Source: Algoriphagus halophilus (GTDB taxonomy: Bacteria > Bacteroidota > Bacteroidia > Cytophagales > Cyclobacteriaceae). Taken from it: a DNA stretch of 64,000 nt. The translations under genes and the position numbers were made by a program. This document shows, one piece after another, positions 1-16,268 of the stretch (position 1 is the stretch's first letter; every line of letters starts with the position of its first letter). The stretch lies in NCBI RefSeq assembly GCF_900129785.1, contig NZ_FSRC01000002.1, positions 248,001 to 312,000 on the forward strand. The letters run 5' to 3'. The notes below the pieces were generated by a model, which saw only the letters and a list, made by a program, of their open reading frames with translations, was not told the DNA's origin and did not search any database.

Positions 1-90
1 GAAATAATTGGACATGAGTTTTTAGGGAAAATAATTTCCTTAATAATCGTCTTAATACCGATTGTTAATAATATAGAGCAGTTTCTATAA
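1..90 (+). CDS. C-terminal end of an unidentified membrane-like protein (partial)
   Basis: Frame 1 is open from the first base to a TAA at 88-90 and encodes 29 residues rich in Ile, Leu and Val, which looks like the last transmembrane segment of a protein that begins before the window. It lies 62 bases upstream of the DoxX start on the same strand, so the two may share a transcript. The family cannot be named from so short a piece. Confidence 0.4.
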   Translation, partial: EIIGHEFLGKIISLIIVLIPIVNNIEQFL

Positions 91-152
91 ATATGGTTTT
101 AAATGAACGCTATAATTATAAATTAAGCTATTCAACTAGAAATAGCTTAATC

Positions 153-557
153 ATGATAGATACTATATTAAAAAATGCTGGAAAATTATTGGTTCGCTTG
201 AGCGCTGGAGCCATGATGCTTACTCATGGTATTCCTAAAATCAGCAGATTATTCGGAGAAGGTCCTGTAAGATTTCATGACCCGTTCGGACTAGGACCGG
301 AAATATCCTTGGCATTAGCAATCATAGCAGAAGTAATTTGTACTGCTTTGATCATGGTTGGATTTAAAACAAGGCTTGCTACTATTCCCTTGATTCTAAC
401 AATGCTCACTGCTGCATTCTATGCGCATGCTGATGATCCTTTTGGTACCAAAGAAAAACCGCTATTATTTATTGTCGTGTTTATAGCCATCGCTATTATG
501 GGACCCGGAAAATATTCTGTTGATGGGTTAAAAAAGAAAAAACGAAGCCTTTTCTAA
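153..557 (+). CDS. DoxX family membrane protein
   Basis: A 134-residue integral membrane protein with four hydrophobic segments, the usual DoxX layout. The first segment carries an ATG-rich GAMMLTHGIPK stretch and the last ends in MGPGKYSVDG, which is like the GxGxxSxDxL end of DoxX proteins. The family is linked to membrane redox functions, but the role of this member cannot be deduced. The frame is open from 93, but the ATG at 153 starts the protein directly before the first membrane segment and matches the family length, so it is preferred. No Shine-Dalgarno is visible, as is normal in this phylum. Confidence 0.85.
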   Translation: MIDTILKNAGKLLVRLSAGAMMLTHGIPKISRLFGEGPVRFHDPFGLGPEISLALAIIAEVICTALIMVGFKTRLATIPLILTMLTAAFYAHADDPFGTKEKPLLFIVVFIAIAIMGPGKYSVDGLKKKKRSLF

Positions 558-942
558 GTCTTAGGAAATGCATGTAACTCTTTTGAAATTCCTATTAAAC
601 CAAAACAATAATTCATTGGAATCTTCTCTTGCTATTGGTATAAAAATATACCTGCTAAGAAACTGCTATCGTTTTAACAGAGTAATTTGCAATTGACATA
701 GACAGAAACAGTTAGCCCCCTTGCACAATTTTTTATAGTCAAAAAAAACGGGGTTGACTCTTAATGAGTAGAGAAAAGAAATAAATACAACAACCTAGCC
801 CCAAATTAAGATTATAGTAAATATCAAACGGGAAGTATGTTTGTTATCTGGATTATTTTCAAATCATTATCTTAAGTACAGGAAAGCCATCTATGCGAAT
901 AATCCCTGATGGATTTCAAGTTTTCAACCCAAAAGCAACCAG
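558..942. other. Intergenic stretch without a recognisable gene
   Basis: These 385 bases are AT-rich and hold no plausible coding frame. A GGGGTTG element near 751 and a CAACCTAGCCCC element near 790 could pair imperfectly around an A/G-rich spacer. I see nothing else. Confidence 0.5.
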
Positions 943-1857
943 ATGAAACGTATCACCCTACTCTTTTTCCTTTTAAGCAATGTCTTATTAGCGCAGGTTC
1001 CGGAAGGAAAGCAAGTGATCAGCTCTTTATACATTTATGATCTTCAATCAGGAGAATCCACTTTAATTTTAAAAGAGGAAAGACACTTTGAAGCCCCAAA
1101 TTGGTCTCCTGATGGAAGATTTCTCTTAATAAACAGTGCGGGAAAATTGGAGAAAATCGGATTGGATGGAAAAAATCTAGGTACTTTAATTACCGGAGAA
1201 ATCCAAAAAGCCAATAACGATCATGGATATGCTTTTGATGGAAAAACCCTATTTATTTCCAGCGGAAAACCTGATGTACGGGGAGGTTCATATATCTACA
1301 AAGTAGAAGCTGAAGGCGGAATACCTGAATTGATCACTGAACTGAGTCCATCCTATTGGCATGGAGTTTCTCCTGATGGAAAAGATGTCGTTTACTGCGC
1401 CCAGAGAAACAATAACTTTGATGTGTATAAAATTAGCACCAATGGAGGTGAAGAAATACGATTGACGTCGGAATCAGGTCTGGATGATGGCCCTGAATAT
1501 TCTCCCGATGGTAAGTTTATTTATTTTAATTCCTATAGGTCTGGAATGATGCAAATTTGGAGGATGAAACCTGATGGTTCCGACCCCGAACAAATGACGT
1601 TTGACAATCATTCCAACTGGTTTGCCCATATATCCCCGAACAACAAGGTAGCAACGATCATTACCTACATCGAAGATCAAAAAGAAAGTCATCCTTTTGG
1701 CAGGCAGGTAAAGCTGAGGTTACTTGATTTGGAAACCAAAGCAGTGACGGATTTAACTGAGGAATTTTATGGAGGCCAGGGAACCATCAACGTGCCTTCT
1801 TGGAATCCTGAAGGAACCAAGTTTGCTTATGTACGATATGCGTTGAAGGATATTTAA
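943..1857 (+). CDS. TolB-like (PD40) beta-propeller secreted protein
   Basis: A 304-residue protein with a Sec signal peptide (MKRITLLFFLLSNVLLAQ) followed by repeated PD40/WD40-like blades. Each blade carries a variant of the SPDGKxxxY motif: NWSPDGRF near 51, FDGKTLFI near 98, VSPDGKDVVY near 143, YSPDGKFIYF near 186, and SWNPEGTKFAYV near the end. Such proteins form a periplasmic propeller, often binding carbohydrate or protein. The last blade is present but the protein stops very shortly after it, and the stop lies next to a repeat boundary (1865 onward), so slight C-terminal loss is possible. A specific ligand cannot be given. Confidence 0.85.
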   Translation: MKRITLLFFLLSNVLLAQVPEGKQVISSLYIYDLQSGESTLILKEERHFEAPNWSPDGRFLLINSAGKLEKIGLDGKNLGTLITGEIQKANNDHGYAFDGKTLFISSGKPDVRGGSYIYKVEAEGGIPELITELSPSYWHGVSPDGKDVVYCAQRNNNFDVYKISTNGGEEIRLTSESGLDDGPEYSPDGKFIYFNSYRSGMMQIWRMKPDGSDPEQMTFDNHSNWFAHISPNNKVATIITYIEDQKESHPFGRQVKLRLLDLETKAVTDLTEEFYGGQGTINVPSWNPEGTKFAYVRYALKDI

Positions 1858-1864
1858 AAAAGAA

Positions 1865-2150
1865 AAACGAATCAATATTGATCGGCTTCGTAGTAGAGGG
1901 AACAGGGCTCTAAAAACAACTATTTTTACAGCGTATTATACAAAAAGGGGATAGGTTTATTTTGCTTATACAATTTTAAATTTATTTGAATACTATCATT
2001 TAAAAGTGGCTCAAAACGCCCTATAAGCACTTTTGAGGCATTTGGGTTTTGAATGGTCTTTTTTCTTTTCTTTAGAATTGAATCTATTTGAATGTTTTTG
2101 GATTTTACTTCACCTCGTACTTTAGTACGTTCCGAGGGCACGAAATATAA
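1865..2150. repeat. Left copy (L) of the tRNA-tail/boundary repeat
   Basis: The block starts with a hairpin arm and a degenerate copy of the initiator tRNA 3' end (tagtagagggaacagg near 1890). It continues with an A/T-rich stretch containing aaaaaggggataggtt and ends in a decayed CGTAC array near 2115-2145. The same elements in the same order recur at about 8915-9365. An open frame on the minus strand (1926-2153) lies inside this repeat and does not look like a gene. Confidence 0.7.
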
Positions 2151-2286
2151 CAATAATCATCAGTTCCTAGATTACAGTTAGTTAACTCAAGCATCTTAAA
2201 ATATTACTAAATCGATCAGTTGAAATTATGACCAATTTTAGAAGACATTTTATTCCAAACCCCGTTTAATCCTTGCAATAAAAGGG

Positions 2287-3090
2287 TTAATTTCTACAGT
2301 GGATATCAAAAAAATAAAGACTTTTTTTCAAATGCTTCCGCCAATATTCCCATTCATGACCACCGGAAAATTCTACATACTCATGGTTTACTCCCAGTTT
2401 CTTAAATTGACTATGGAGTAGACGATTTCCTTCAATCAACTCATCATTCAATCCACAATCAAAGCGGATAGCTGGTAAAGAGTCTACTTTCCTTTTTACC
2501 AAATCTATTACATCATTTTCAGTATTTCGAAGCTTATAGGATTCGAGAGATTCTTCTACAAATAAAGACATCTCCGAAAACCTAGTGATAGCACTGTGCG
2601 CGGAAATAGCAGAAAAAATCTCAGGATATTGAGTTCCCAATTTCAAAGCCCCATACCCTCCCATAGAAAGCCCCCCTATGCAGATTGGGGATTTTTCACT
2701 GGCGTTTGAAATATTCTCTCTGATTGCTTTTGGTACATCCGATACAATCCACTCCGCAAAATCCAGCTCTTGGTGAGTTAAATATCCCGAACCATCTCCC
2801 CAAAGTCCATCCGAAGGCATCGCAATAATAGCTGGTCGTATTTCACCACTTTCCATAAGTCGCTTTGCTGTCACATGTGCCCCGCCTTTCATCGCCCATA
2901 CCCAAGCAGATCCATAAACTCCATGTAGCAAAATGTAGATAGGAAGGTCGGTTAGATTCTCTATCCCTTTTGGCACATAGAGGCAAATATCCCCTCTTCC
3001 TTTAAGATTTGGCGTTTTGACCGTCAAAAAACGAAGGCCTGATTGTTCAAACATTTCGTCTGACAATTCTATGGATCTAAAACTGTTCAT
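2287..3090 (-). CDS. Serine hydrolase, putative esterase (esterase D/S-formylglutathione hydrolase-like)
   Basis: A 267-residue alpha/beta hydrolase of the PF00756 type. Visible features are an oxyanion-loop motif LLHGVYG at 54-60, a nucleophile elbow GLSMGG with Ser142, an acid in CGLNDEL (Asp216) and His245 in GGHEWEYW. No signal peptide is seen, so it should be cytosolic. It is the last gene of the minus-strand P450 operon, 11 bases after the alcohol dehydrogenase. S-formylglutathione hydrolase belongs to this fold. In a P450 O-demethylase operon that releases formaldehyde, a role in formaldehyde or ester handling is plausible, but this is inferred from context. Confidence 0.85.
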   Translation of the reverse strand: MNSFRSIELSDEMFEQSGLRFLTVKTPNLKGRGDICLYVPKGIENLTDLPIYILLHGVYGSAWVWAMKGGAHVTAKRLMESGEIRPAIIAMPSDGLWGDGSGYLTHQELDFAEWIVSDVPKAIRENISNASEKSPICIGGLSMGGYGALKLGTQYPEIFSAISAHSAITRFSEMSLFVEESLESYKLRNTENDVIDLVKRKVDSLPAIRFDCGLNDELIEGNRLLHSQFKKLGVNHEYVEFSGGHEWEYWRKHLKKSLYFFDIHCRN

Positions 3091-3101
3091 AGCGTATAGC
3101 T

Positions 3102-4220
3102 TTAAGGAAATACGATAACTCCTTTGGCATTTACTCCAGCGAGCATATCATCAAATGCAAGTTGTAAATCATCCAGTTTATACTCTTTGCTGATCATTTG
3201 GTCTAGTTTAAGCTGCCCATTTTTATACAATTGCATAATAATAGGAAAATCAATCTGAGGTCGGCATTTTCCATAGAGGGGATTGATATATATTTTATCC
3301 CATTCAAAAAGTCGCATGTCTATGGTGATTTCTTCTTCGATCCCACTCACTTGTACTGCTGTCCCAGCATTTCGGATCATAGCCAAGGGAGCAGCACCCA
3401 AGGCAGGAATCGCAGTGCATTCAAAAGCATAATCGGCCCCTCTTCCTCCTAGCATCTCTTTTACTTTTAAAGAAGCACTGATCAGCCCGACATCATCTTT
3501 TTCAGCCAAAATCACTTTTGTAGCTCCAAACTCCTTCGCCATTTCCAATTTGGCTGGATTGATATCCACCGCTATGATTAGGCTGGCTCCTGAGATTTGA
3601 CAGGCATTGATCACGTTCAAACCTACTCCTCCGCAACCCAAAACTACTACGGAACTTCCAGCTTTTAATTTGGCTGCATTCACAACTGAGCCATAACCGG
3701 TCATCACACCACAGCTGATAATACTGGCGGCAGAAAAATTCAAACTTGGCTCTTCTACCTTCACCACTGCTGACTCCTTAACTAGGGTATACTCGCTCAA
3801 AGTACCCAGATTAAATGAGCGCTCAATAGCATTTCCCTCCCACTTGGTACTTCCCAAAGACGCTTGTCCGGGGGTATGTCCATTTCCTCCTGCGACTACA
3901 GGAGAATTGTTTTCACAAATATGTTGATTGCCTTCCTGACATTGAAAGCAATGCATGCATGGCGTAGCCCAGTTCAAAATCACCTGATCACCAGGTTTTA
4001 CATGAGTTATTTTAGCTCCAACTTTCTCTACTATTCCGGCACCTTCATGTCCCATTATTATGGGTTTGCCCCAGCTTAAGGAGTCATAATCTGTATGGCA
4101 AAGCCCAGCAGCCTTCATTTTTACCAGCACCTCATCTGAATCCGGTTCAGAAATACTGACATTACAAATGCTAAAAGTACCATCTCCTTTTGCTACAGCT
4201 GATTTTGAAATAATTGACAT
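3102..4220 (-). CDS. Zinc-dependent alcohol dehydrogenase (class III/COG1062-like)
   Basis: A 372-residue medium-chain NAD(P)-dependent alcohol dehydrogenase. Catalytic zinc ligands are visible as Cys41, His58 (in GHE) and Cys170. The structural zinc lobe has Cys88, Cys91, Cys94 and Cys102. The Rossmann motif GCGGVG is at 195-200. It follows the ferredoxin reductase in the P450 operon after a 135-base gap, so an internal promoter is possible. Comparable enzymes sit next to the P450 in marine Bacteroidetes that demethylate 6-O-methyl-D-galactose. Its actual substrate (formaldehyde adduct, sugar aldehyde or other alcohol) cannot be read from the sequence. Confidence 0.92.
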   Translation of the reverse strand: MSIISKSAVAKGDGTFSICNVSISEPDSDEVLVKMKAAGLCHTDYDSLSWGKPIIMGHEGAGIVEKVGAKITHVKPGDQVILNWATPCMHCFQCQEGNQHICENNSPVVAGGNGHTPGQASLGSTKWEGNAIERSFNLGTLSEYTLVKESAVVKVEEPSLNFSAASIISCGVMTGYGSVVNAAKLKAGSSVVVLGCGGVGLNVINACQISGASLIIAVDINPAKLEMAKEFGATKVILAEKDDVGLISASLKVKEMLGGRGADYAFECTAIPALGAAPLAMIRNAGTAVQVSGIEEEITIDMRLFEWDKIYINPLYGKCRPQIDFPIIMQLYKNGQLKLDQMISKEYKLDDLQLAFDDMLAGVNAKGVIVFP

Positions 4221-4355
4221 TGCATAAAATTTTTAAAACTCCAGAGAACACAAAGATTGGCTCAGAGGTCACAATATATTTTGCTATTATCAGTAAACTC
4301 AAATACTAAGAACCTAACCCTCAGTAAGATTACTAATATTTATGATCAAGTGAGT

Positions 4356-5597
4356 TTACTTACCGATTGATTTGAGTTCAACTTCAGAATTCTTCAATTT
4401 TGCTTTGTCTATCTGTTCTCCACTTTTGATAAATTTGGTACCCCAAACATAAGCTTTCGCAGAATTCACCGCGTCAACTGCCAGCAACTCATTTCCCTTA
4501 AAATACCAAATAGAGAAGACCTTTTCTGATTCTTTTCTCAAAATTACTTCCTCATAACCAGTAGATAAGCCTACCATTTGGAATTTCACTTCATATTGAT
4601 CAGACCAAAACCAAGGAATCGTATCATAGAAAACATCCTTACTACAAATCGCAGCAGCAGCGATTTTCGCCTGATCCACCGCATTCTGAACACATTCCAG
4701 CCGGAGATATCGCTGGTAGTGAGGGTTGAAATGATTGGTACAATCTCCGATCGCATAGATATGCTCATCCGAAGTAAGAGTTGTTAAATCTACTCGTATT
4801 CCATTTTCCATTTCCAATCCCGATGCCGAGGCCAATTCAGAATTCACCTGAATACCCACTCCTAGCACTAGCATATCAGCAGAAAAACTGGAACCATCTG
4901 CACAAATAATCTGTGTTTTTTCACTTCCTCCCTTTATGGCAGTGACCTGCTTATTGCAGTGAATAAATACTCCATTTTCAGCATGAAGATTCTCAAAAAA
5001 CAAAGACAATTCAGGCGCAGTCACACGTGCAAGCACCCTGGATTCCCGCTCCAATACCGTAACTTTTGCTTCTAACTTTCTTAAGGAAGCTGCGATCTCC
5101 AGACCGATATACCCACCACCAATGATGACTACTTCCTGACTGAAATTCTGAGAAATTTTATTCCGAATTTCATTGATATCGGCGGCTGTTCGTAACGGAT
5201 AAACATGTTTTGCTTCGGACAAACCTGGGATAGACGGGATCATCGCCCGAGCTCCAGTGGCAAGGACCAGTTTATCGTAAGCTTGCCATGTTCCATTATC
5301 CAGCTGTACTATTTGAGTTTTTCGATCTATTCTCAGCGCTCTGATTTTAAGGAGTAACTGTATGTTTTCCTTGGCATAGCTTTCTGCAGACTTCAAAAGA
5401 TTTAGACCTATAGCTTCGGCATTGTACAGGTAAGTTTTGGAAAGAGGAGGACGATGATAAGGCAACTCTGGATCTGAGTCCAGTAGTATTATTTTTCCTT
5501 CCCACCCTTCCTTTCGCAACGCAAATGCACAATTTACCCCTGCATGGCTTGCTCCAATGATCAAACAGATTTGATTTTTCCCTAAGTTTTCAGACAT
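4356..5597 (-). CDS. NAD(P)H-dependent ferredoxin reductase (putidaredoxin reductase type)
   Basis: A 413-residue FAD-dependent pyridine nucleotide-disulphide-type oxidoreductase. The N-terminus has an FAD dinucleotide fold (LIIGASHAGVNCAFALR). The middle has an NAD(P) fold (VVIIGGGYIGLEIAASLR), and near 280 is the second FAD motif AIGDCTNH. Length and layout match putidaredoxin reductase-like enzymes that pass electrons from NAD(P)H to a 2Fe-2S ferredoxin. The ATG at 5597 is preferred to the TTG two codons upstream; it lies 8 bases after the ferredoxin stop. Together with its two upstream neighbours it forms a complete class I P450 electron chain. Confidence 0.93.
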   Translation of the reverse strand: MSENLGKNQICLIIGASHAGVNCAFALRKEGWEGKIILLDSDPELPYHRPPLSKTYLYNAEAIGLNLLKSAESYAKENIQLLLKIRALRIDRKTQIVQLDNGTWQAYDKLVLATGARAMIPSIPGLSEAKHVYPLRTAADINEIRNKISQNFSQEVVIIGGGYIGLEIAASLRKLEAKVTVLERESRVLARVTAPELSLFFENLHAENGVFIHCNKQVTAIKGGSEKTQIICADGSSFSADMLVLGVGIQVNSELASASGLEMENGIRVDLTTLTSDEHIYAIGDCTNHFNPHYQRYLRLECVQNAVDQAKIAAAAICSKDVFYDTIPWFWSDQYEVKFQMVGLSTGYEEVILRKESEKVFSIWYFKGNELLAVDAVNSAKAYVWGTKFIKSGEQIDKAKLKNSEVELKSIGK

Positions 5598-5605
5598 GAG
5601 CAATC

Positions 5606-5914
5606 TTATTTGGCAACACGAAGTACCAATCCATCAAGCTCCTCACTGATCTGCAACTGACATGAAAGACGACTGTATTGATCCGTATCATCATCCAATT
5701 CCAGCATATCTGCTTCGATTTCGCTTGCCTCACCGGTTTTCGAGATATCCTCAGGAGCCACATGAACATGACAGGTGGCACAAGAACATACTCCTCCACA
5801 ATCACCGTCGATCCCTTTTATTCCATTCTCCACAGCTAATGCCATCACCGAACCCGAAAACCCTTCCAAAGTAATCCTCTGCTCATCACTCGTTATAAAG
5901 GTAATTTTTGCCAT
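5606..5914 (-). CDS. 2Fe-2S ferredoxin, putidaredoxin-like
   Basis: A 102-residue adrenodoxin/putidaredoxin-type ferredoxin. Cluster ligands are Cys39, Cys45, Cys48 and Cys85 (DCGGVCSCATC, then SRLSCQ), the same spacing as putidaredoxin; Cys43 is an extra cysteine. The frame stays open to 5935, overlapping the P450 end. The ATG at 5914 directly precedes the first beta-strand (MAKITFITSD) and is chosen, four bases after the P450 stop. It should shuttle electrons from the reductase encoded just downstream to the P450 encoded just upstream. Confidence 0.94.
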   Translation of the reverse strand: MAKITFITSDEQRITLEGFSGSVMALAVENGIKGIDGDCGGVCSCATCHVHVAPEDISKTGEASEIEADMLELDDDTDQYSRLSCQLQISEELDGLVLRVAK

Positions 5915-5918
5915 TTCT

Positions 5919-7082
5919 TTATTGGGTTGTTGCATTGAATTTCACACTGATTTTATGGTAACCTACCTTTCGTTGGAATTTGCCCCATTTTTCGATATTC
6001 TCTTTCATATCAAGAATGTCTATTGATTTAATTTTCTCCGAAAATTCTTTTACTAGAATTCTCATAATCTGTCGGGCATGTGTAGCTCCAAGGCAATTGT
6101 GATGACTAAAACCAAATCCCACGTGCGGATTAATTTTTCGGTCCAAAACTATTTCATTCGGATTTTCAAAAACATTTTCATCCCTGTTGGCAGATGCCCA
6201 ACATAAAGAAACCCGACTATCTGCTTTTGCTGCATGCTCACAGACAATTGTATCTTCAGTTACTACCCTACCCATATGCGTCAAAGGCGAAAAGTATCTG
6301 ATCATTTCTTCTACTGCATTAGTAATGATTTCAGGCTCCTTTCTCAGCCTTTCCAAGGATTCAGGATGATCTGCAAAATAAGCGATTGCATTGGTGACTG
6401 CATTAATTACTGTATCACGACCTCCGGCGAAAGTCAAAACCATCACCCCTTTTGCTTCTTCTTTGGTCAGCTTTCTCCCATCAAAATCTGACTGCATAAG
6501 TACCGAATACAAGTCATCAGATGGATTGGCGATCGCACGATCAAGTTCACGGTCTATATAATCATAAAGTACATTGGCTTTATCCGCATCCAAAGCTTCT
6601 CCTTCACTACGAAAAACGTGTGTCCCCCAGGATATCCAGGTTTCTGACTCTTTGAAAGGCGTATTGAGCAAAAGCGTCAGGGCACGGGACTGTAAGGGAA
6701 GCGCAAATTCATTGACCACTTCCAGGGATTCCTTAGCCAACATCTCCTCAATAATACTTGAGACTATCTTAGTCAATGCTTCCTGATAATCCGCATAAAT
6801 GGGACGCTTAAACCATGCTTCCAAAACTGATCTGTATGCTCCATGTTTTGGAGGATCCACTTCAAATGGAATCTGCCGCGTATCACGAATATTCACTTCA
6901 GAGGGAACGACAATCCTTCCAGGAATCGTCTCTGAGGTAAAGGTCTTGTAATTATGTGCAGTCTTCCTGACATCTTTGTGTCGCAGCAACATGGTCACTG
7001 GATCATTTTGGTCATCTACAGTCTCATAGCCACATTTGGATCTCTGCGTTGCAAAAGGATCGGGTATTTCACTTTTTTTCAT
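5919..7082 (-). CDS. Cytochrome P450 monooxygenase (candidate 6-O-methyl-D-galactose demethylase)
   Basis: A 387-residue soluble bacterial P450. The I-helix motif AGGRDT is at 219-224, the K-helix ExxR at 259-262, and the heme-binding loop FGFSHHNCLG has the proximal Cys at 330. No membrane anchor is present. It is the first gene of a minus-strand operon with its own ferredoxin and reductase and is divergent from an AraC regulator. A decayed GH16 agarase/porphyranase-like gene lies just beyond the regulator. This set resembles the operons by which Zobellia and Formosa oxidatively demethylate methoxy-galactose from red-algal porphyran. The P450 assignment is secure. The substrate is an inference from neighbours. 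Confidence 0.95.
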   Translation of the reverse strand: MKKSEIPDPFATQRSKCGYETVDDQNDPVTMLLRHKDVRKTAHNYKTFTSETIPGRIVVPSEVNIRDTRQIPFEVDPPKHGAYRSVLEAWFKRPIYADYQEALTKIVSSIIEEMLAKESLEVVNEFALPLQSRALTLLLNTPFKESETWISWGTHVFRSEGEALDADKANVLYDYIDRELDRAIANPSDDLYSVLMQSDFDGRKLTKEEAKGVMVLTFAGGRDTVINAVTNAIAYFADHPESLERLRKEPEIITNAVEEMIRYFSPLTHMGRVVTEDTIVCEHAAKADSRVSLCWASANRDENVFENPNEIVLDRKINPHVGFGFSHHNCLGATHARQIMRILVKEFSEKIKSIDILDMKENIEKWGKFQRKVGYHKISVKFNATTQ

Positions 7083-7254
7083 GGAGTTCGGTTTCAGGTT
7101 AGGGCCTTGTTTCTTGATTTACAATAATTGCCAAAAAACTATTCAGATAACTTCCCTATTTTCACCAATAAGTAATCTATTATGTCGCCTATATATATTT
7201 TTGGGAAAAAAATTGATTAAATAGTAAATTTAACCGTACTATCACTACGAGATT
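7083..7254. promoter_or_regulatory. Divergent promoter region between P450 operon and araC-type regulator
   Basis: This 172-base AT-rich gap separates the start of the P450 operon (minus) from the start of its likely regulator (plus). It must hold both promoters and any regulator site. I see no clean repeated operator. A TTTTGG block followed by TAGTAAATTT near 7200-7231 is a weak promoter candidate for the plus-strand gene. Confidence 0.4.
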
Positions 7255-8097
7255 TTGAAGCCAATTTTAGAACCCATCCCCTTAGGAAATCAGAAATCTA
7301 TCTTAGGTTTCTGTTTTGATAAAAAGGATTTTGAAACACCCTGGCATTTCCATCCTCAGCATGAGCTGACCTACATTGAAGAAAGTGTGGGAACCAAATT
7401 TATTGGGGACTATGTAGGTGGATACCAGCCAGGAGAATTGGTTTTGTTGCGATCAAATCTTCCCCATTGTTGGAAAAACAACACCTCTCAGGCATCAAAC
7501 TCCAAATCATACGTAGTACAATGGAATTTGGGGATTTTTCCCAAAGTGCCAGAATTAGACTCAATTCATCAATTGTTAAAGACAGCCTCCAGAGGTTTGA
7601 TTTTTGACAAGGAGCAGGTGAATCACCTAATTCCTCTGATTAAAACCTTCCCGGATTTGTCAGGGCAAGAGCTTTATATTCAACTTCTGGGCATACTTTC
7701 AGCACTTAGTAAAGCATCCTATAACACACTTTCAGCCGCGAGTTTTACAGATGATATTCCCAGCGAATACGGCACACGAATGGCCAAAATCCATGACTTT
7801 GTAGGAGAAAATTTTGGGAGGAAAATTTATCTAAAAGAATTAGCGGATTTAGTAAATCTCTCCGAGCAATCCTTTTCAAGATTTTTCACCAAGATGATGG
7901 GAAGGCCATTCTTTACCTTTCTGAATGAATATAGAATAAACCATGCAGCGAGGATGCTGTTGGACACGGAGGAGCCCATAGCGCAAATCGCCTATGCCTG
8001 TGGTTACGATTCACTTCCTTTTTTCCATAAGAAATTCAACGAATCCTACCAAGTATCGCCTGCAAAGTACAGGAAACAGTTTTTCCAGAAAAGCTAA
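7255..8097 (+). CDS. AraC family transcriptional regulator
   Basis: A 280-residue regulator with an N-terminal cupin-like sensor (PWHFHPQHELTYIEE near 25-40, LLRSNLPHCW near 65) and a C-terminal AraC double helix-turn-helix (LKELADLVNLSEQSFSRFF, then PIAQIAYACGYDSLPFFHKKF). The frame has no ATG near its start. Between an upstream TAA at 7231 and the first conserved residues, TTG at 7255 is the only usual start codon, giving MKPILEPIPL. It is divergent from the P450 operon and probably its activator, responding to a sugar. The 3' end abuts a decayed GH16 gene on the other strand. Confidence 0.9.
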   Translation: MKPILEPIPLGNQKSILGFCFDKKDFETPWHFHPQHELTYIEESVGTKFIGDYVGGYQPGELVLLRSNLPHCWKNNTSQASNSKSYVVQWNLGIFPKVPELDSIHQLLKTASRGLIFDKEQVNHLIPLIKTFPDLSGQELYIQLLGILSALSKASYNTLSAASFTDDIPSEYGTRMAKIHDFVGENFGRKIYLKELADLVNLSEQSFSRFFTKMMGRPFFTFLNEYRINHAARMLLDTEEPIAQIAYACGYDSLPFFHKKFNESYQVSPAKYRKQFFQKS

Positions 8098-8446
8098 AAT
8101 ATGATCGCCTATTTTTTTCCACTGGCTTATACACTCTTATCCACTTCACTCTGAAGGTATGATCCTCTACATTGGCCAATTCTGAATCAATAGGCGTGTA
8201 GGTTTCTGATTGTAAACCTGATTCAGGACTGGATCTCCAGGTTTGATCCTCCACATTGATGATGATATCCATTTCCTTACTCAACCCGGTTCGTGTATCC
8301 TTGGCAGTATTCCCGAGCTCTTCAGCATTCGTATAAAATTTTGGATCGATCATATCTTTGCCCAAAACCCTACGAACCAATTCCCCTTCAATTTAATATT
8401 CCAAATCCCAAGAATCTTTCCAACTGACGCAATATCGATGAAACTC
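8098..8446 (-). pseudogene. Remnant of a GH16 beta-agarase/porphyranase-like glycoside hydrolase
   Basis: On the minus strand the frame reads FHRYCVSWKDSWDLEY, then an in-frame TAA (8393-8395), then IEGELVRRVLGKDMIDPK, KEMDIIINVEDQTWRS and finally DSELANVEDHTFRVKWIRVYKPV. This is the typical C-terminal third of GH16 agarases/porphyranases, which end in a W(V/I)RVYKP strand. The upstream catalytic ExDxxE part is missing, and a second break or frameshift occurs near 8450. The fragment runs tail to tail into the AraC gene. It is a non-functional relic, but it ties the neighbouring P450 operon to red-algal galactan use. The family call rests on motif recognition alone. Confidence 0.7.
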
Positions 8447-8861
8447 TTTCTTCTAGGTTGCACCAACTATGTTTCATGAACCGGAATCTGTAGGCTGATA
8501 ATCCTAATAGAGTGTCTTACATGAATCCATTGAACTGAGTAAAAACCGTGTCTCTTTAAAGATATTAAGACATGATTAGGAGTTTCTAAAGTTTGCCAAT
8601 TTAAGCCATCTTTTTATTCACTTTCCAAATCTTACTTAGGGTGTTGTGCTTCAAGATTAATAAATTCAGGTTTAAATCCATCATAGATAAATGACTTTAA
8701 AGAAAGCGTCAAATTCCAATTTGAGATGAGTCATGGAAATTCAGAGTAATTGAAAAACAATAATTCCAAAGAATAAACTAACCTCTGGAATTTGTTGAAA
8801 AGGAAAGTTTAAAATATTTGAAAAAAATGAATCTAAAAGTGGAACAAAATTGACTCCTTTG
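8447..8861. other. Decayed, non-coding stretch upstream of the GH16 relic
   Basis: No intact gene is visible in these 415 bases. One minus-strand frame gives coding-like peptides (for example FIYDGFKPEFINLEAQHPK) broken by TAA codons, which suggests a further pseudogene, but I cannot assign it to a family. Confidence 0.4.
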
Positions 8862-8985
8862 GAATCATTTGGAATTCATCATTACACAAACCGCATCAGA
8901 AACCCTATAAAACACAAAAAGCCGATCAAAATTGATCGGCTTCGTAGTAGCGGGAACAGCGCTACAAACTTATCCTGATTTTCAG
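8862..8985. repeat. Middle copy (M): duplicated tRNA-fMet 3' end, terminator hairpin and flank
   Basis: The sequence left of and including tagtagcgggaacag (8946-8960) matches the downstream flank and 3' end of the intact initiator tRNA at 16100-16207. Shared pieces are ccgcaNcagaaaccct, aaacacaaaaag, a hairpin (8921-8940 here) and the last 12 bases of the tRNA (8948-8959). After base 8960 the similarity to the tRNA stops. This is the pattern left by integration at a tRNA 3' end, where the element end carries a copy of the tRNA tail. Confidence 0.7.
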
Positions 8986-9285
8986 CAACTTATAAGAAAA
9001 GAGGGACAAAAAGGGGGACAGGTTCATTTTGCTTTTACATTTTTAAATTTATTTAAATCGAACCATTTTGAACCTCTAAAAATGTAGCTCTATATGCTGT
9101 ATAAGCACTTTTCTTGTTTATGGTTTTTGAATGATCTTTTTTCTTTTTGATGTGAAATCAGAAAACGAACCTGTTTTAAGCAGGGTCAAAATCAGAAAAC
9201 GAACCTTTGAATTTCCTGCAATTTTGAAGGTATTTGAGCCGTCTCTGGATTGAATTCATTTGAAAGGATTAGAATCACTTTTCTC
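8986..9285. repeat. Boundary-repeat body shared with the left copy, with an internal direct repeat
   Basis: This continues the M block and is homologous in order to 1905-2110: gggacaggttcattttgctt near 9011, then tttaaatttatttaaat, then tataagcactttt near 9100. It also contains two copies of aaatcagaaaacgaacct (9155-9172 and 9189-9206), which the left copy lacks. No gene is supported here. Confidence 0.55.
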
Positions 9286-9341
9286 CCTCGTACAATTCGT
9301 ACGGTACGAGGGGTACGAGCCGTACGAGATGTACGAATTTT
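9286..9341. repeat. GTACGA array, left copy
   Basis: A 56-base sequence made of about five GTACGANNN units of 9-base period. It recurs at 9956-10011 with a single difference. The two copies flank the toxin-antitoxin pair as direct repeats. Confidence 0.85.
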
Positions 9342-9409: not shown

Positions 9410-9646
9410 ATGGCACGTCAAACAATAACCGTTACAGAACCGAATGATCGCTGGTTGAAGCAGAAAATTGAGGAAAATGAATATGCTAGTAAAAGCGAAT
9501 TGATCAACGATTTGATTCGCCGTCAGCGAGAACAGGAATTAGATAGAATCTGGTTAAAAAATGAACTGATTAAGGGCGAGAAAAGTGGCCTTTCTACCAA
9601 GACAATGGCCGAAATTCTAAAGGAGGCTAAAAGGCGGGGAAAATAA
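9410..9646 (+). CDS. ParD/CopG-like ribbon-helix-helix antitoxin
   Basis: A 78-residue protein whose first 45 residues form a ribbon-helix-helix pattern (MARQTITVTEPNDRWLKQKI, then YASKSELINDLIRRQ). It continues with a charged C-terminal tail that would wrap the toxin. It is followed after 4 bases by a ParE-like toxin and preceded by a perfect palindrome suited to autorepression. Size, order and motifs fit a type II toxin-antitoxin system. The pair sits between two GTACGA arrays and may have moved as a cassette. Confidence 0.9.
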   Translation: MARQTITVTEPNDRWLKQKIEENEYASKSELINDLIRRQREQELDRIWLKNELIKGEKSGLSTKTMAEILKEAKRRGK

Positions 9647-9650
9647 GACC

Positions 9651-9923
9651 ATGACTTTTACACTTAGTCTTCAAGCAGAGGAAGACCTAATTCAAATTTA
9701 TCTCTATGGATTGGAAACGTTCGGCAAATTACAAGCCGAGCGATACTTCAACTCTTTGGAAAAAACTTTTGAGAGGATTGCTCAAAATCCTGAAATGTAC
9801 CCCATGGCAAATGATATCAGAACTGGCTACCGGTACTGTGTTCATAGCTCACACACTATCTACTTTACTTCAGAGGAGCAGTTTAACATCATTCGAATAA
9901 TTGGGAAACAAAAATTCACATGA
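9651..9923 (+). CDS. ParE/RelE-superfamily toxin
   Basis: A 90-residue toxin of the ParE group: LSLQAEEDLIQIYLYGLETFG at the N-terminus, a helical middle, and the C-terminal strand pattern YRYCVHSSHTIYFTSEEQFNIIRIIGKQ. ParE proteins poison DNA gyrase, whereas RelE relatives cleave mRNA. The sequence favours ParE, although the target cannot be proved. It is co-transcribed with the antitoxin and is intact, with no stop or frameshift. Confidence 0.9.
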   Translation: MTFTLSLQAEEDLIQIYLYGLETFGKLQAERYFNSLEKTFERIAQNPEMYPMANDIRTGYRYCVHSSHTIYFTSEEQFNIIRIIGKQKFT

Positions 9924-9955
9924 AACACCCCAATTAGCTATGAATCTCATTTCAG

Positions 9956-10011
9956 CCTCGTACAATTCGTACGGTACGAGGGGTACGAGCCGTACGAGGT
10001 GTACGAATTTT
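9956..10011. repeat. GTACGA array, right copy
   Basis: A 56-base direct repeat of 9286-9341 differing at one base (gaggt for gagat). It lies 33 bases after the toxin stop and directly before an Rhs fragment. Confidence 0.85.
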
Positions 10012-10040: not shown

Positions 10041-10508
10041 TCAGTTTTTCATGCTTCCTATCCAGTTGGTATGGCTGGACCAGTACCTCAACTGGTAAGT
10101 TTTGGGGGCCACATATTTCCCCAAAACTCCCAGTTCCACACTGTCCCCTTGTTGTACTTCCTGGCTTCTAGATGGGCCCAAAATCCTCCCTCTATCTGCA
10201 TTTAACCAAGCTGTGGCATACCCCGCTGGGGTTTTATTGTGCTCAGCAGCTCCTTGTCTCGACTCTCGGATGTTCTTGAAATATTTCTCCTCTTCTTCGG
10301 CATTTTCTGGTTCGATGGTAGCGATACGCATAGCCGAATTTGGAGCCCTGACCACTTGCCTGACATTTCCTAGATGATCCTTAATAAAGAATTCATACTG
10401 GAAAACAGAACTCTCCTTAGAAGCCCTACCTTCTTCATAGATAATATAGGAAAGGGAATTGTTCTCAACCGATAACAGAGTCGTAAAGTCTAGCTCTGTC
10501 CCTGACAC
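10041..10508 (-). pseudogene. Rhs fragment C (core segment only)
   Basis: The translated segment matches the Rhs core: FQYEFFIKDHLGNVRQVVRAP near residue 37, then ESRQGAAEHNKTPAGYATAW and ADRGRILGPSRSQEVQQGD. It parallels the first part of Rhs copy A (13900-14220) but is more diverged. It lacks the upstream YD repeats. After GKYVAPK (about 10100) the frame runs into unrelated sequence containing an imperfect palindrome (10062-10095), so no core end or tip is present. It is a gene fragment without its own start signal. Confidence 0.85.
10062..10095. repeat. Imperfect 34-base palindrome at the end of Rhs fragment C
   Basis: CCAGTTG at the left end pairs with CAACTGG at the right end, and an inner CTGG/CCAG pair closes the structure. 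It marks the point where Rhs homology ends. Confidence 0.5.
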
Positions 10509-10565
10509 GATTCACTTATATACCCATCCCCTGTATTTTCCAACAGTATTTTTAATCAAAAACAT

Positions 10566-10667
10566 TTACTTATGGAAGATTATTATCAATATTAAAATCA
10601 ATAAAAAAAGTAATGATAAACTTATCATCAATCTCCAACTAAACTTATTCCAAGGCATTAAAGGCAT
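10566..10667 (-). CDS. Possible 33-residue membrane peptide downstream of Rhs tip B
   Basis: A short frame starts at ATG 10667 and ends in TAA. It encodes MPLMPWNKFSW followed by a continuous hydrophobic helix of about 20 residues and a positively charged HK end. It lies 34 bases after the stop of Rhs tip B on the same strand, the place where an immunity gene would be expected. The region is very AT-rich, so a chance frame is quite possible. Confidence 0.25.
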   Translation of the reverse strand: MPLMPWNKFSWRLMISLSLLFLLILILIIIFHK

Positions 10668-11410
10668 TATTTTTTTAATTTAATTTGACATGTTTTATTA
10701 CTATTGATTGAAATTCATTGGTCCATCATTATATATAAATTCTGATGGAACATAAATAGGCAGAGGAAATGGCCAACGAATCAACTTCTCAAGATAAAAA
10801 GTTTCAAAAATACTCACTCCAATATTACCTATTGAAATTCTATTTTCAGGCTTTTGAAGCATTGGGAAATACTCCTGTAAATCTTTCCCCATATATGTTT
10901 CCCAGAAATTAAATGATGAACCTGGAATAGAATTCCAATCCTTATCAACCCAGAATGTATTGCCTCTTTTATCAGACATTTTAAAATAAGTGATGCCATC
11001 CAAGTCCTTGGTATTCCCCACATATCCATATCCTTTACCATTTTCTCTTGGTATTTCATTTGGAGCCACTTTTTGTTTCGGTTCCCTATTTCCTGAACAA
11101 CAATCTTTATTCCCTTGATTATTATCATTTTTCTTGATATCTGAAAGATAACCTCCATCTTCTGTATGGCTCCATACAAACCCGATATCTATTTCTTCAC
11201 CATACCCTCCTTTTACTGTCTGGCCATTATCCTCATCTTCCTGACTCATACTTTCACCAGATGTAGTAGTACTTCCTGCCACAGAATATGGCTCCATCCC
11301 ATCTGGGTCAATAAATCTGATAGGATTGTCAAAAGCGTAATTATAGGGAGAATGTCGAGTCATTTTTTCGGCCATCGGATCCAAAACGAACCATCTTCCA
11401 ATAGCCGGAT

Positions 11411-11483
11411 TCCCGATACGCTTCGCTATCGGGACAGGCTATACATCCTAGCTCCGAAATCATACCCACGATAGCAATCGGGG
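11411..11483. repeat. Two REP-like hairpins inside Rhs copy B
   Basis: Compared with the same site in copy A (about 13300-13370), copy B has two extra pieces. One is a hairpin with 8-base arms tcccgata/tatcggga (11411-11434). The other is a smaller one near 11465-11483 (cccacgatagcaatcgggg). They disrupt the [12 protein letters not shown] region. Confidence 0.6.
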
Positions 11484-11521
11484 TCACTCCCAAGTAGCCG
11501 TTTGCCTCCCACGCTGCATGC

Positions 11522-11573
11522 TGGCTCTTCGCTAAAATGATCCAAAGGGATCATTTCTTAACGCTAAACCCTC
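11522..11573. repeat. Hairpin insertion element, copy 1 (in Rhs B)
   Basis: It has a perfect palindrome with arms aaatgatcc/ggatcattt (11535-11556) between tggctcttcgct on one side and ttaacgct plus ccctc on the other. It interrupts the Rhs frame exactly after NPYLYNEG. The same element is at the same position in copy A. Confidence 0.75.
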
Positions 11574-11834
11574 ATTATAAAGATATGGATTCACTTTGAT
11601 ACCTGCATACTGATAGCCCAACCCAGAAAGTTCCACTCCCCAGGGGTCATAGTGGGTTTCCTGGACGATCAGAGGTCCTGTACTTAGGATTCTGAACTGG
11701 TCAAACCAGACATTGTCATCGGTCTCATTGACCAAGTAAGCTTCTATGTAGCCGTCTTTTTTGACCGCTATTTTCTGGATCAGTTCCTCATGTTTGTTCC
11801 TTGATTTTTTGGAAATGGTATCCTACGCTCAACC

Positions 11835-11885
11835 TGGCTCTTCACTCAAACAGTCCACTGGACTGTTTCTTTACGCTCAGCCCTC
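11835..11885. repeat. Hairpin insertion element, copy 3 (in Rhs B)
   Basis: It has arms aaacagtcc/ggactgttt (11848-11868) with the same borders as the other copies (tggctcttc on one side, ttacgctcagccctc on the other) but a different stem sequence. It interrupts the frame after LYEQ. An extra acgctcaacc half-border at 11825-11834 suggests a second, partial unit. Confidence 0.7.
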
Positions 11886-12124
11886 CTGTTCATACAGATT
11901 GCTATCTGCATCATATAGTGCATAGCCCATATATGCCTCTGGTACAGGTTTCTGTTGCAGCTCGGTGATCACCAAGGCTATCACATTGGCAATGGCGATT
12001 TCATTTGGAGAAGCTGCGAGATTTTGCCCATACTCGCCTAGTGTACGGATGATTTTCTGATCCAAGCCCGTTCTTACAAACGTCGCAGAACTAAGTCTTA
12101 ATTTCTTGAGGGAGGGGCCAGCCA

Positions 12125-12457
12125 TTAATCTAAACAGTTAAAATCAAGATTCATTTTATCCAACAATCTTTCCTCCCTATATATAAAAAAAATAGTACTA
12201 TTTTTAGCTTTAAATACTGAATCACCGATTATAATTTTCTCCCAAAAGGGATCATATTTATAGTCCGTAGGAAAATAGTATTTACCATTTCCTTTTTCGC
12301 TGTTGACCTCCAAAACCTTTTTACCTCTATCCCATTCATATACCTTTAAGTTTACAACTTTTCCAGAGAATTCTTTAGAGTTTTGTTCATTAATAAAATC
12401 ACAATAACTGCATGAACTAATCATTAGTATAGCATATACATATAATATTTTTTTCAT
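12125..12457 (-). CDS. Small lipoprotein, candidate immunity protein for Rhs tip A
   Basis: A 110-residue protein with a lipoprotein signal peptide (MKKILYVYAILMISSC, lipobox ISSC with Cys16) and a mature part rich in Lys, Glu and Tyr (GKYYFPTDYKYDPFWEKIIIGD). I do not recognise the family. It starts 6 bases after the stop of Rhs tip A on the same strand. That is where immunity genes of polymorphic toxins sit, and a membrane-attached lipoprotein would suit a toxin acting in the envelope. The stop overlaps the ATG of the next Rhs fragment. The function is inferred from position only. Confidence 0.6.
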   Translation of the reverse strand: MKKILYVYAILMISSCSYCDFINEQNSKEFSGKVVNLKVYEWDRGKKVLEVNSEKGNGKYYFPTDYKYDPFWEKIIIGDSVFKAKNSTIFFIYREERLLDKMNLDFNCLD

Positions 12458-12463
12458 TTTAAA

Positions 12464-14500
12464 TTATCTAAATAATTGTGATAAATTAAAGCTATAACTA
12501 ACTCCAGCACCAAAACTTGATTTAATAGGAAAAGTAGGACTTATTCCTAATGCAATAGAGTATCCAGATACCTGATTGAAAACAAGCTTTCCATTGTTGA
12601 GAGTAAAGGAGTGACTTATTGAGTAATTTGATGCTCCATAAAAAACAGATGGACCTGATAAATCTCTGTGTTGAAGAGGGCCATTCGAATTATATCTAGA
12701 AACTTTTCCTCCAACTCCTACATCTAGCCCAAGACCCAAAGAATATGTTAAATACGTTTCCGTTGTAAGCTTTCCTTCTTGGTTATACGCTCTAATTCGA
12801 TCTATTGAGAAGCTTGCTCCCCCGCCAGGTGTTAAACCATTCAAATAAATGCCTCCAGAGTTGAAGGCTGAAATATTCGAAGTTCTAATTTGAGTATAAT
12901 TAAATCCAATATTTCCAAATGTACTATTCGCAAGACCTTGAGCGTACCACCTATCTGCTGCCCTCCCCAGTACTCCTGGAAACGACCGCGGTGCAGTTAC
13001 AGTAAACTCCTCAAGATTAATATTTATACATTCAGGACAGTTATCTGCGCCTCCTTGATTGCCAGCTGAAGTCGATGGGTCGGAATTATCACTCCCTCCC
13101 TTCGCTTTCTTTTCGTCATCCTTCTTTCTACCGTCAGTTCCATGAACATTTCCATTTTCATCGACGTCCACGTAGCCATCGTACGTCATCCCCCCATTCG
13201 GCTCGATGGGTGCCATCCCATCTGGATCAATAAACCTCAGCGGATTATTGAAAGCATAATTATATGGAGAATGTCGTCGCATCTTCTCAGCCATCGGATC
13301 CGATACAAACCATCTTCCAATAGCAGGATCATACATCCTGGCTCCGAAATCATACAGGTTCACTCCCAAGTGGCCGTTTGCCTCCCACGCTGCATGCTGG
13401 CTCTTCGCTAAAATGATCCAAAGGGATCATTTCTTAACGCTCAACCCTCATTATAAAGATATGGATTCACTTTGATACCTGCATACTGATAGCCCAACCC
13501 AGAAAGTTCCACTCCCCAGGGGTCATAGTGGGTTTCCTGGACGATCAGAGGTCCTGTACTTAGGATTCTGAACTGGTCAAACCAGACATTGTCATCGGTC
13601 TCATTGACCAAGTAAGCTTCTATATAGCCGTCTTTTTTGACCGCCAGCTTTTGTATCAGTTCCTCGTGTTTGTTTCGTGCCTCTTTTGATAATACTACCT
13701 TGCCCTGTTCGTAAAGGACCGAATCAGAATCATAGAGAGCATAGCCCATATAGGCCTCCGGGGCAGGTTTTTGCTGGACTTCTGAGATTACCAAGGCAAT
13801 CACATTGGCATTGGCGATTTCATTAGGAGCAGTTGCCAAATTCTGACCATACTCGCCTAATGTTCGGATAATCTTTTGGTCCAATCCTGTTCGAACGAAA
13901 CTAGCCGGGCTTAGTCTGACTTTCTTAGGATCCACATACTTCCCAAAAATCCCTACCTCTACGCTGTCTCCCTGCTGAACTTCCTGACTTCGGGACGGCC
14001 CGAGTATCCTCCCCCGATCCGCATTGAGCCAGGCCGTCGCATACCCTCCAGGAGTCTTGTTGTGCTCACCCGCTCCCTGTCTGGATTCCCGGATATTGTC
14101 AAACAGCTCTTCCTCCTCCTCCGCTTTTTCCGGTTCCATTGTGGCGATCCTCATTGCAGAAACCGGAGCTCTCACTACCTGACGAACATTTCCCAGGTGG
14201 TCTTTGACGAAAAATTCGTATTGAAACGCTGAATTCTCATAGGCCGCGCGTCCTTCTTAATGCATGATATAGGACATCGTATTGGCTCCTGAATTGACTT
14301 TTTCAAACACAAATTCCCCCAAATAATCTAAGGTGGTTGTGGCCCCTTCTACATTTAACTGACGAACCTTCACTCCTTCCGCATTGTACCAATAGATGAG
14401 GCTTCTACCTGTCTCTGAGAAGACAATAGACTTGGGCAGGTTTAGATGATTGTAGGTAATGACAATGCTGTATTGATCATTTAAAAGTATTGAACCACTT
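12464..14500 (-). pseudogene. Rhs copy A (N-terminally truncated, broken; carries tip A)
   Basis: Homology begins near 14500 (VITYNHLNLPKSIVF) without the signal, long YD-repeat region or start of a real Rhs protein. A TAA at 14257-14259 falls in frame before EGRAA. The core continues through FQYEFFVKDHLGNVRQVVRAP to NPYLYNEG (13443), where a hairpin insertion stops it. It resumes with [19 protein letters not shown] and [20 protein letters not shown]. The tip that follows (about 250 residues, ending at 12464) has an acidic, low-complexity linker, a CPEC pair, and then a Gly-rich part with alternating beta pattern ([12 protein letters not shown]). I cannot name a toxin family. As it stands no full-length product can be made. 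Confidence 0.88.
13398..13449. repeat. Hairpin insertion element, copy 2 (in Rhs A)
   Basis: Nearly identical to the element at 11522-11573, with the palindrome at 13411-13432. It lies at the same codon of the Rhs core. On the Rhs strand it introduces a TGA directly after NEG. Confidence 0.75.
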
Positions 14501-16190: not shown

Positions 16191-16195
16191 TTTAG

Positions 16196-16268
<73 letters not shown>

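Follow-up and report, generated by a model that had tools for sequence, protein, structure and literature searches.

A cytochrome P450 operon of the 6-O-methyl-D-galactose demethylation type beside an agarase remnant in Algoriphagus halophilus

A 64,000-nucleotide stretch of Algoriphagus halophilus DNA (here the window; C2:248001-312000 of a 4.98-Mb genome) carries a minus-strand operon for a cytochrome P450, a ferredoxin, a ferredoxin reductase, a zinc alcohol dehydrogenase (ADH) and a serine hydrolase (here the esterase), with a divergent gene for an AraC-family regulator (Table 1). All these genes lie where the original prediction, made from the sequence alone, had placed them. Our analysis suggests that they form a complete oxidative demethylation module of the Zobellia/Formosa type for 6-O-methyl-D-galactose (G6Me), that this module was acquired horizontally and that the cell scavenges free G6Me, a reading to which we give a probability of about 0.8. 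According to this, electrons would pass from NADH through the ferredoxin reductase and the ferredoxin to the P450, which would hydroxylate the 6-O-methyl group of G6Me, and the hydroxylated product would split into formaldehyde and D-galactose, for which the genome has a galactokinase. The ADH and the esterase would be helpers in some step and the AraC regulator would turn the operon on. The six-gene unit would have moved horizontally together with a dead fragment of a neighbouring agarase gene, and the cell would live on free G6Me freed by other degraders.

The identity of the P450 is central to this reading. Its best PDB match was 6g5o (677.7 bits over residues 1-386), which we take to be the G6Me demethylase P450 of Zobellia, and the runner-up among the 409 matched sequences reached 148.1 bits. 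The family is presumably the one named CYP236A, as the original prediction also called it; a literature search on this name found nothing. In a tree of 37 rows, which did not include two (L016 and L017) of the six distant P450 loci, the window P450 paired with that of Algoriphagus lutimaris (100/99) and then with those of A. chordae and A. aestuarii (94/99), and the Algoriphagus group was nested among proteins from marine Bacteroidota and a few Pseudomonadota, in the clade to which the Zobellia, Maribacter and Algibacter sequences belong. Four outgroup P450s stood separate on very long branches, and the bootstrap had not settled. Within this tree the P450 did not group among other hydroxylases, and together with the margin in bit score this favours the G6Me demethylase type that had been proposed. 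The core motifs of a P450 were all found, namely AGGRDT (I-helix acid-Thr) at 219, EEMIR (ExxR) at 258 and the heme Cys loop FGFSHHNCLG at 323 (window 6087-6116), in which a Ser takes the place of the Gly that is usual in P450 heme loops. The exact 15-residue loop motif, FGFSHHNCLGATHAR, occurs in 98 of the 120 homologues listed out of 4141 and, as judged from these proteins, is a signature of this P450 group. Across the same 120 homologues, 185 columns are at least 95% one residue, and the window P450 matches 182 of them. The structure of the Z. galactanivorans P450 has been reported as solved (PMC10033563). In addition, the database entry of a 73% identical P450, on a 1387-base contig (P0074), names the brown alga Scytosiphon promiscuus as its source; this contig is most likely a bacterial contaminant of the algal assembly.

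The accompanying genes point in the same direction. Among the 11 close P450 loci (L002-L012, excluding the six distant loci L013-L018), ferredoxin and reductase genes lie beside the P450 in all 11 and ADH and esterase genes in ten; the remaining locus, L008, is on a contig of 10.9 kb whose start is 1.4 kb before the P450, and neither ADH nor esterase is in the stretch covered. The window ADH matched the PDB entries 8h2b (700 bits) and 8h2a (614 bits), which are ZoADH and FoADH (PMC10033563), and Phe136, named in that work, is retained at position 136 and invariant among 11 aligned sequences. The same gene neighbourhood is described there for Polaribacter, Maribacter and Arenibacter, and the window module has the same five proteins as those of Zobellia galactanivorans and Formosa agariphila, with orthologous P450 and ADH and the arrangement given in PMC10033563. 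Orthology of P450 and ADH and the gene order strongly support the proposed three-component P450 module of the Zobellia/Formosa type, and by these marks the operon is a genuine member of the known G6Me demethylation module, placed in an unusual setting that appears to be mobile. Unlike those modules, it stands apart from any intact glycosidase, sulfatase or SusC/D, both in the first 14 kb of the window and in A. lutimaris, and it is bounded by tRNA-Met repeats. The kind of enzyme is thus already known, and the new part is the natural separation of the module from galactan digestion.

This separation is visible in what lies beyond the regulator. A 114-residue open reading frame (ORF; 8036-8380, minus strand) matches the GH16 beta-agarase B of Zobellia (AgaB, 1o4z) with an E-value of 8e-39, and read-through of 8114-8536 on the same strand corresponds to residues 201-341 of the 341 of the A. 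aestuarii AgaB homologue (L004:7946-8971) at 77% identity, interrupted by four stops. The remnant is therefore the C-terminal 41% of an AgaB-type beta-agarase; it resembles the Zobellia enzyme over this part and lacks the GH16 catalytic motif EIDIVE, which lies outside it at residue 172 of the A. aestuarii protein and is kept by each of the five open AgaB frames of Algoriphagus. The A. lutimaris remnant has all four window stops and an extra one. Matches of both the module genes and the agarase far exceed chance. The decayed GH16 relic that had been described as agarase- or porphyranase-like is thus real and agarase-B-like, and the porphyranase part of that description does not hold. At an E-value of 1e-3 the genome yielded no second AgaB-like gene; three PF00722 genes were considered and set aside, as the AgaB query misses them at this threshold and they look laminarinase-like by eye.

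Relatives show what an intact locus looks like. In A. aestuarii, an open AgaB gene adjoins the AraC gene in the same place and orientation as the remnant, at the end of a gene run that comprises GH117 (3p2n, 765 bits), an ADH-like protein, a short-chain dehydrogenase/reductase (SDR) protein, an aldehyde dehydrogenase, a 3,6-anhydro-L-galactonate cycloisomerase (5xd7, 618 bits), a mutarotase and a RhaT-type carrier. In A. winogradskyi, A. chordae and the genomes G056 and G026, the same genes of this polysaccharide utilisation locus (PUL) are at most about 26 kb away from the module; each of the four has an AgaB homologue, and in G056 a GH86 gene is located some 7 kb from the P450. These five agar/porphyran PULs share the module, AraC and a candidate operator with the window and differ from it in having an open AgaB with its catalytic motif, GH117 and the anhydrogalactose pathway; in the seven Algoriphagus loci AgaB is thus open in five and a remnant in two, those of the window and A. 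lutimaris. The window module does not lie among the carbohydrate-active enzymes, sulfatases and SusC/D proteins of a red-algal galactan PUL, and only the agarase remnant stands beside it. In A. chordae, G056 and G026 (L003, L072, L074-L076), genes labelled DUF1553/DUF1501 by eye and related genes were seen between AraC and AgaB, which A. aestuarii does not have there.

Whole-genome searches for PUL genes, which did not include A. lutimaris and A. aestuarii, extended this observation. An orthologue of the anhydrogalactonate cycloisomerase (at least 79% identity) was found in eight of nine genomes bearing the P450 and GH117 (at least 87%) in four of five, and the exception was in both cases the window's genome (29% for the cycloisomerase). 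Galactokinase (galK) was present in all five genomes, including this one, so that galactose would be usable. The searches turned up no genes for the polysaccharide side of the parental PUL, so that free G6Me liberated by other microbes is the most likely substrate of the cell. That the module demethylates some other methoxy sugar or glycoside in this strain, outside a porphyran context, would agree with the finding of no searched agar or porphyran gene intact in the genome; we consider it improbable because the P450 is 94% identical to those in the A. chordae and A. aestuarii PULs and keeps nearly all of the near-invariant positions mentioned above, and with so small a change a new specificity is not the default.

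Several lines of evidence suggest that the module did not simply stay where an ancestral PUL had been. The P450 was found in five of the 72 Algoriphagus genomes searched, the window's included, and the two genomes closest by the GTPase Der, G015 and G047 (95%), have no P450 match. A. chordae (G010) is only 61st of 70 listed by Der (87%), yet its P450 is 94% identical to that of the window. Synonymous differences between the two follow a gradient across the module (AraC 0.20, P450 0.30, reductase 0.50, esterase 0.57 and ADH 0.61; the ferredoxin was not scored), which suggests more than one recombination, and stand against 0.76 and 0.81 for the housekeeping genes Era and Der. Because this silent-site closeness goes far beyond that of Era and Der, we read the module as having been transferred horizontally between the lineages of the window, A. 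chordae and A. aestuarii, along a route and in a direction that we can only infer. The alternative, which the original prediction had put forward, is that an ancestral PUL decayed in place, losing its agarase and anhydrogalactose half and keeping the demethylase operon. The order and orientation of AgaB and AraC as in A. aestuarii, a relic that is still 77% identical and the lack of a silent-site excess relative to G056 would all fit with such a vertical history, but it leaves the low silent-site differences to A. chordae, the nearest genomes without the P450 and the tRNA-Met repeats around the module unaccounted for, and we regard it as unlikely. A decayed relic thus remains from that account, and its in-place porphyranase does not, given an agarase of the B type, the signs of transfer, the repeats, and GH117 and cycloisomerase genes that were not found.

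The repeats carry the 3' end of a tRNA-Met. The motif TAGTAG(C/A)GGGAACAG occurs on either side of the module (1891 and 8945) and once more in the tRNA (16193); a search with 19 bases of the second copy as the pattern, up to three mismatches being allowed, gave three matches in the 64 kb and none in 100 shuffles. The two flanking copies are 7,054 bp apart and delimit a 7.05-kb islet. Beyond the motif they have about 200 bp more in common, and about 90 bp of the second copy recur in the tRNA region. In A. lutimaris both copies are present and a tyrosine recombinase gene adjoins the second, where synteny with the window ends, and in the five other Algoriphagus module loci scanned neither copy was found. 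Furthermore, seven relatives keep tRNA-Met, Era and Der together, and the DNA across the tRNA from Era and Der varies; the window's left flank was not seen beside tRNA-Era-Der in the 19-40 kb covered for each of them (one tRNA was typed undetermined), and G012 and G024 have a second motif copy near the tRNA. Direct repeats of a tRNA 3' end, DNA that differs beside the tRNA in each relative and an integrase beside the A. lutimaris repeat are features of tRNA-targeted genomic islands, and the tRNA-Met may accordingly be read as a hot spot of integration, with the module lodged in it as an islet.

The islet nevertheless appears to be kept in working order. The closest named relative in the P450 scan is A. 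lutimaris (P450 98%; DNA 97.2% over window 1-8966), and all six frames are open in both. Pooled over the six genes, 27 nonsynonymous differences at 4291 sites and 53 synonymous differences at 1199 sites give a ratio of 0.14 (Fisher p ~1e-17, ignoring linkage and recombination). Per-gene ratios range from 0.05 for the ferredoxin to 0.53 for AraC, the latter from only three changes, and those relative to A. chordae are 0.04-0.13 over a path that includes a PUL-bearing lineage. Taken as a pool, the six genes are under purifying selection. In addition, the P450 is preceded at 72 bp by a 27-bp element, AATAGATTACTTATTGGTGAAAATAGG, which is identical in A. lutimaris, A. chordae and A. aestuarii. It lies 71-73 bp upstream in the other Algoriphagus loci, of which G056, G026 and A. 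winogradskyi have a recognisable form, and 48-61 bp upstream in Cellulophaga and both Algibacter loci, where it is recognisable as well. It was not found in L005, L009 and L010, which have AraC proteins of 31% identity or less. Elsewhere in the window and 24 other stretches nothing scored above threshold, bar one weak match in L007; since six of the ten sites found had also served to train the weight matrix, only uniqueness and the absence from L005, L009 and L010 carry weight. The element looks like a candidate AraC site. The islet borders on a dead gene and a mobile hot spot, as could also be expected of unused, inert cargo heading for decay, but the six open frames in two genomes, the pooled dN/dS and the unchanged candidate operator make this very unlikely. 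A general scan for promoters and terminators was uninformative, with 12 promoter-like sites against 19.7 in shuffles and 6 terminator-like sites against 5.2.

A number of observations weigh against a horizontally acquired module that serves the use of free G6Me. As for the transfer, the excess closeness at silent sites is limited to A. chordae and A. aestuarii: relative to G056 the module differs by 0.65-0.80 and Era and Der by 0.79-0.82, and relative to A. winogradskyi and G026 the module is near saturation (0.71-0.91), to the same degree as Era and Der. The A. aestuarii values are much like those of A. chordae and have no Era or Der for comparison, the yardstick of two core genes is thin, and the G047 genome is 89% complete, which limits its negative result for the P450. 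As for the islet, and unlike tRNA-targeted genomic islands, its repeats are degenerate (73-83% over their length), no integrase was recognised among ORFs of at least 80 residues between them and a clean empty tRNA-Met site was not seen in the relatives. As for the physiology, G6Me as the substrate in this strain is predicted by orthology alone, and the islet contains no sugar transporter or intact glycosidase, which leaves G6Me uptake unexplained. An intact AgaB, GH117, the cycloisomerase and GH86 were not found in the genome, in searches that did not cover the GH50 and GH118 agarases. GH86 (PF18206) was found in three of the nine P450-bearing genomes, so its absence from this one says little. 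Nor was a formaldehyde route found in the genome, where an HxlA-like gene scores below its cut-off. A porphyranase in place was also considered and set aside, as the genome has no GH86 gene; this is weak evidence, as five of the eight other P450-bearing genomes have none.

The HxlA-like gene (L078:6981-7688; genome C2:206980-207687) scored 140 bits, below the cut-off of 200, and an hxlB-type gene was not recognised by eye within 15 kb around it, so that the ribulose monophosphate (RuMP) pathway was rejected as the formaldehyde sink. Clustered with it are ADH, SDR, sugar isomerase-like, gluconolactonase-like and major facilitator superfamily genes, a set that more probably serves a sugar-acid pathway than RuMP.

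PMC10033563 leaves open what the ADH and the esterase do in methoxy-sugar use. According to that source, deletion of either the ADH or the P450 in Z. galactanivorans weakens growth on G6Me and not on galactose, and FoADH and ZoADH are inactive on galactose, on G6Me and on formaldehyde, with or without thiols (glutathione, mycothiol, bacillithiol, cysteine, CoA, ergothioneine and two aromatic thiols). Our own searches placed the esterase at 32 bits against the S-formylglutathione hydrolase model TIGR02821, below its curated cut-off of 282, and a structure search tied feruloyl esterases and S-formylglutathione hydrolases without separating them. The two enzymes might detoxify formaldehyde via a further low-molecular-weight thiol, which PMC10033563 leaves as a possibility: the nearest NCBIfam models of the ADH include hydroxymethyl-thiol dehydrogenases, and the esterase has the fold of an S-formylglutathione hydrolase. 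The inactivity reported there with the thiols listed above argues against it, and such a route seems to us possible, if on the unlikely side.

A more speculative and doubtful idea is that the six genes are a minimal unit in which the ADH would oxidise the 6-O-hydroxymethyl hemiacetal made by the P450 to 6-O-formyl-galactose, and the esterase would hydrolyse this formyl ester to galactose and formate before the product falls apart. No free formaldehyde would appear, the ADH step would give back the NADH spent by the P450 and the route would be an oxygen-ether counterpart of the glutathione formaldehyde pathway. If true, this would explain the G6Me defect of the ADH deletion despite the inactivity of the enzyme on formaldehyde, thiol adducts, galactose and G6Me, and also why both genes travelled with the module and persisted in a genome in which no galactan digestion genes were found. 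A precedent are the ADHs of the methyl formate synthase type of methylotrophic yeasts, which likewise act on a formaldehyde hemiacetal and convert it to a formate ester (PMC12572079), with the difference that the alcohol is methanol and that the passage on them names no esterase partner. Two published facts are some evidence against the idea, which was found neither in PMC10033563 nor by a literature search; no test of an ADH on a sugar hemiacetal was found in the literature either.

Whatever the chemistry, the retention of the ADH and esterase genes along with the P450 in a genome for which no agarase, GH117 or anhydrogalactose catabolism was found suggests that both serve the demethylation step itself, and the orphan islet is a natural test of their role. 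If our preferred reading of a transferred demethylation module is right, the capacity to demethylate methyl sugars passes from one species to another as a unit of its own, so that bacteria with this P450 need not degrade porphyran and may live on the leftover sugars of others.

Table 1. Features of the module and its borders in the window.
Feature	Position	Strand	Remarks
Direct repeat DR1	1856-2069	.	degenerate copy of the tRNA-Met 3' end with flank common to DR2
Esterase (serine hydrolase, PF00756, CE1/esterase D fold)	2287-3090	-	no evident signal peptide by eye
Zn alcohol dehydrogenase (ADH), ZoADH/FoADH orthologue	3102-4220	-	8h2b/8h2a matches
FAD-dependent ferredoxin reductase	4356-5603	-	Pyr_redox_2 and Reductase_C domains
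Putidaredoxin-type 2Fe-2S ferredoxin	5606-5935	-	start probably codon 8, as in relatives
CYP236-type cytochrome P450	5919-7082	-	sole P450 found in the genome (PF00067)
Candidate operator, 27 bp	7155-7181	-	72 bp upstream of P450 start; inferred
AraC-family regulator (cupin and HTH_18)	7255-8097	+	divergent from the operon
AgaB-type GH16 beta-agarase remnant	8114-8536	-	residues 201-341 only, four stops, catalytic motif absent
Direct repeat DR2	8886-9147	.	with terminator hairpin; A. lutimaris synteny stops inside, at window 8966
tRNA-Met (cat)	16195-16268	-	parent of the repeats; begins the conserved tRNA-Era-Der block

The neighbouring segment, which is bordered by two of the tRNA-Met repeats, has features of its own. 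Just outside DR2 lies a ParDE-like pair (9410-9923), with a ParE toxin domain (PF05016) at 9651-9923 and an antitoxin assigned by eye upstream; the ParE gene is flanked by a 70-bp repeat rich in CGTACGGTACGAG palindromes (9272-9341 and 9942-10011). Further on between DR2 and the tRNA-Met (10041-14175), repeated RHS-like frames were seen by eye together with a 300-bp repeat of 97% identity (11469/13345), and a comparable piece is present near the tRNA-Met in G012.

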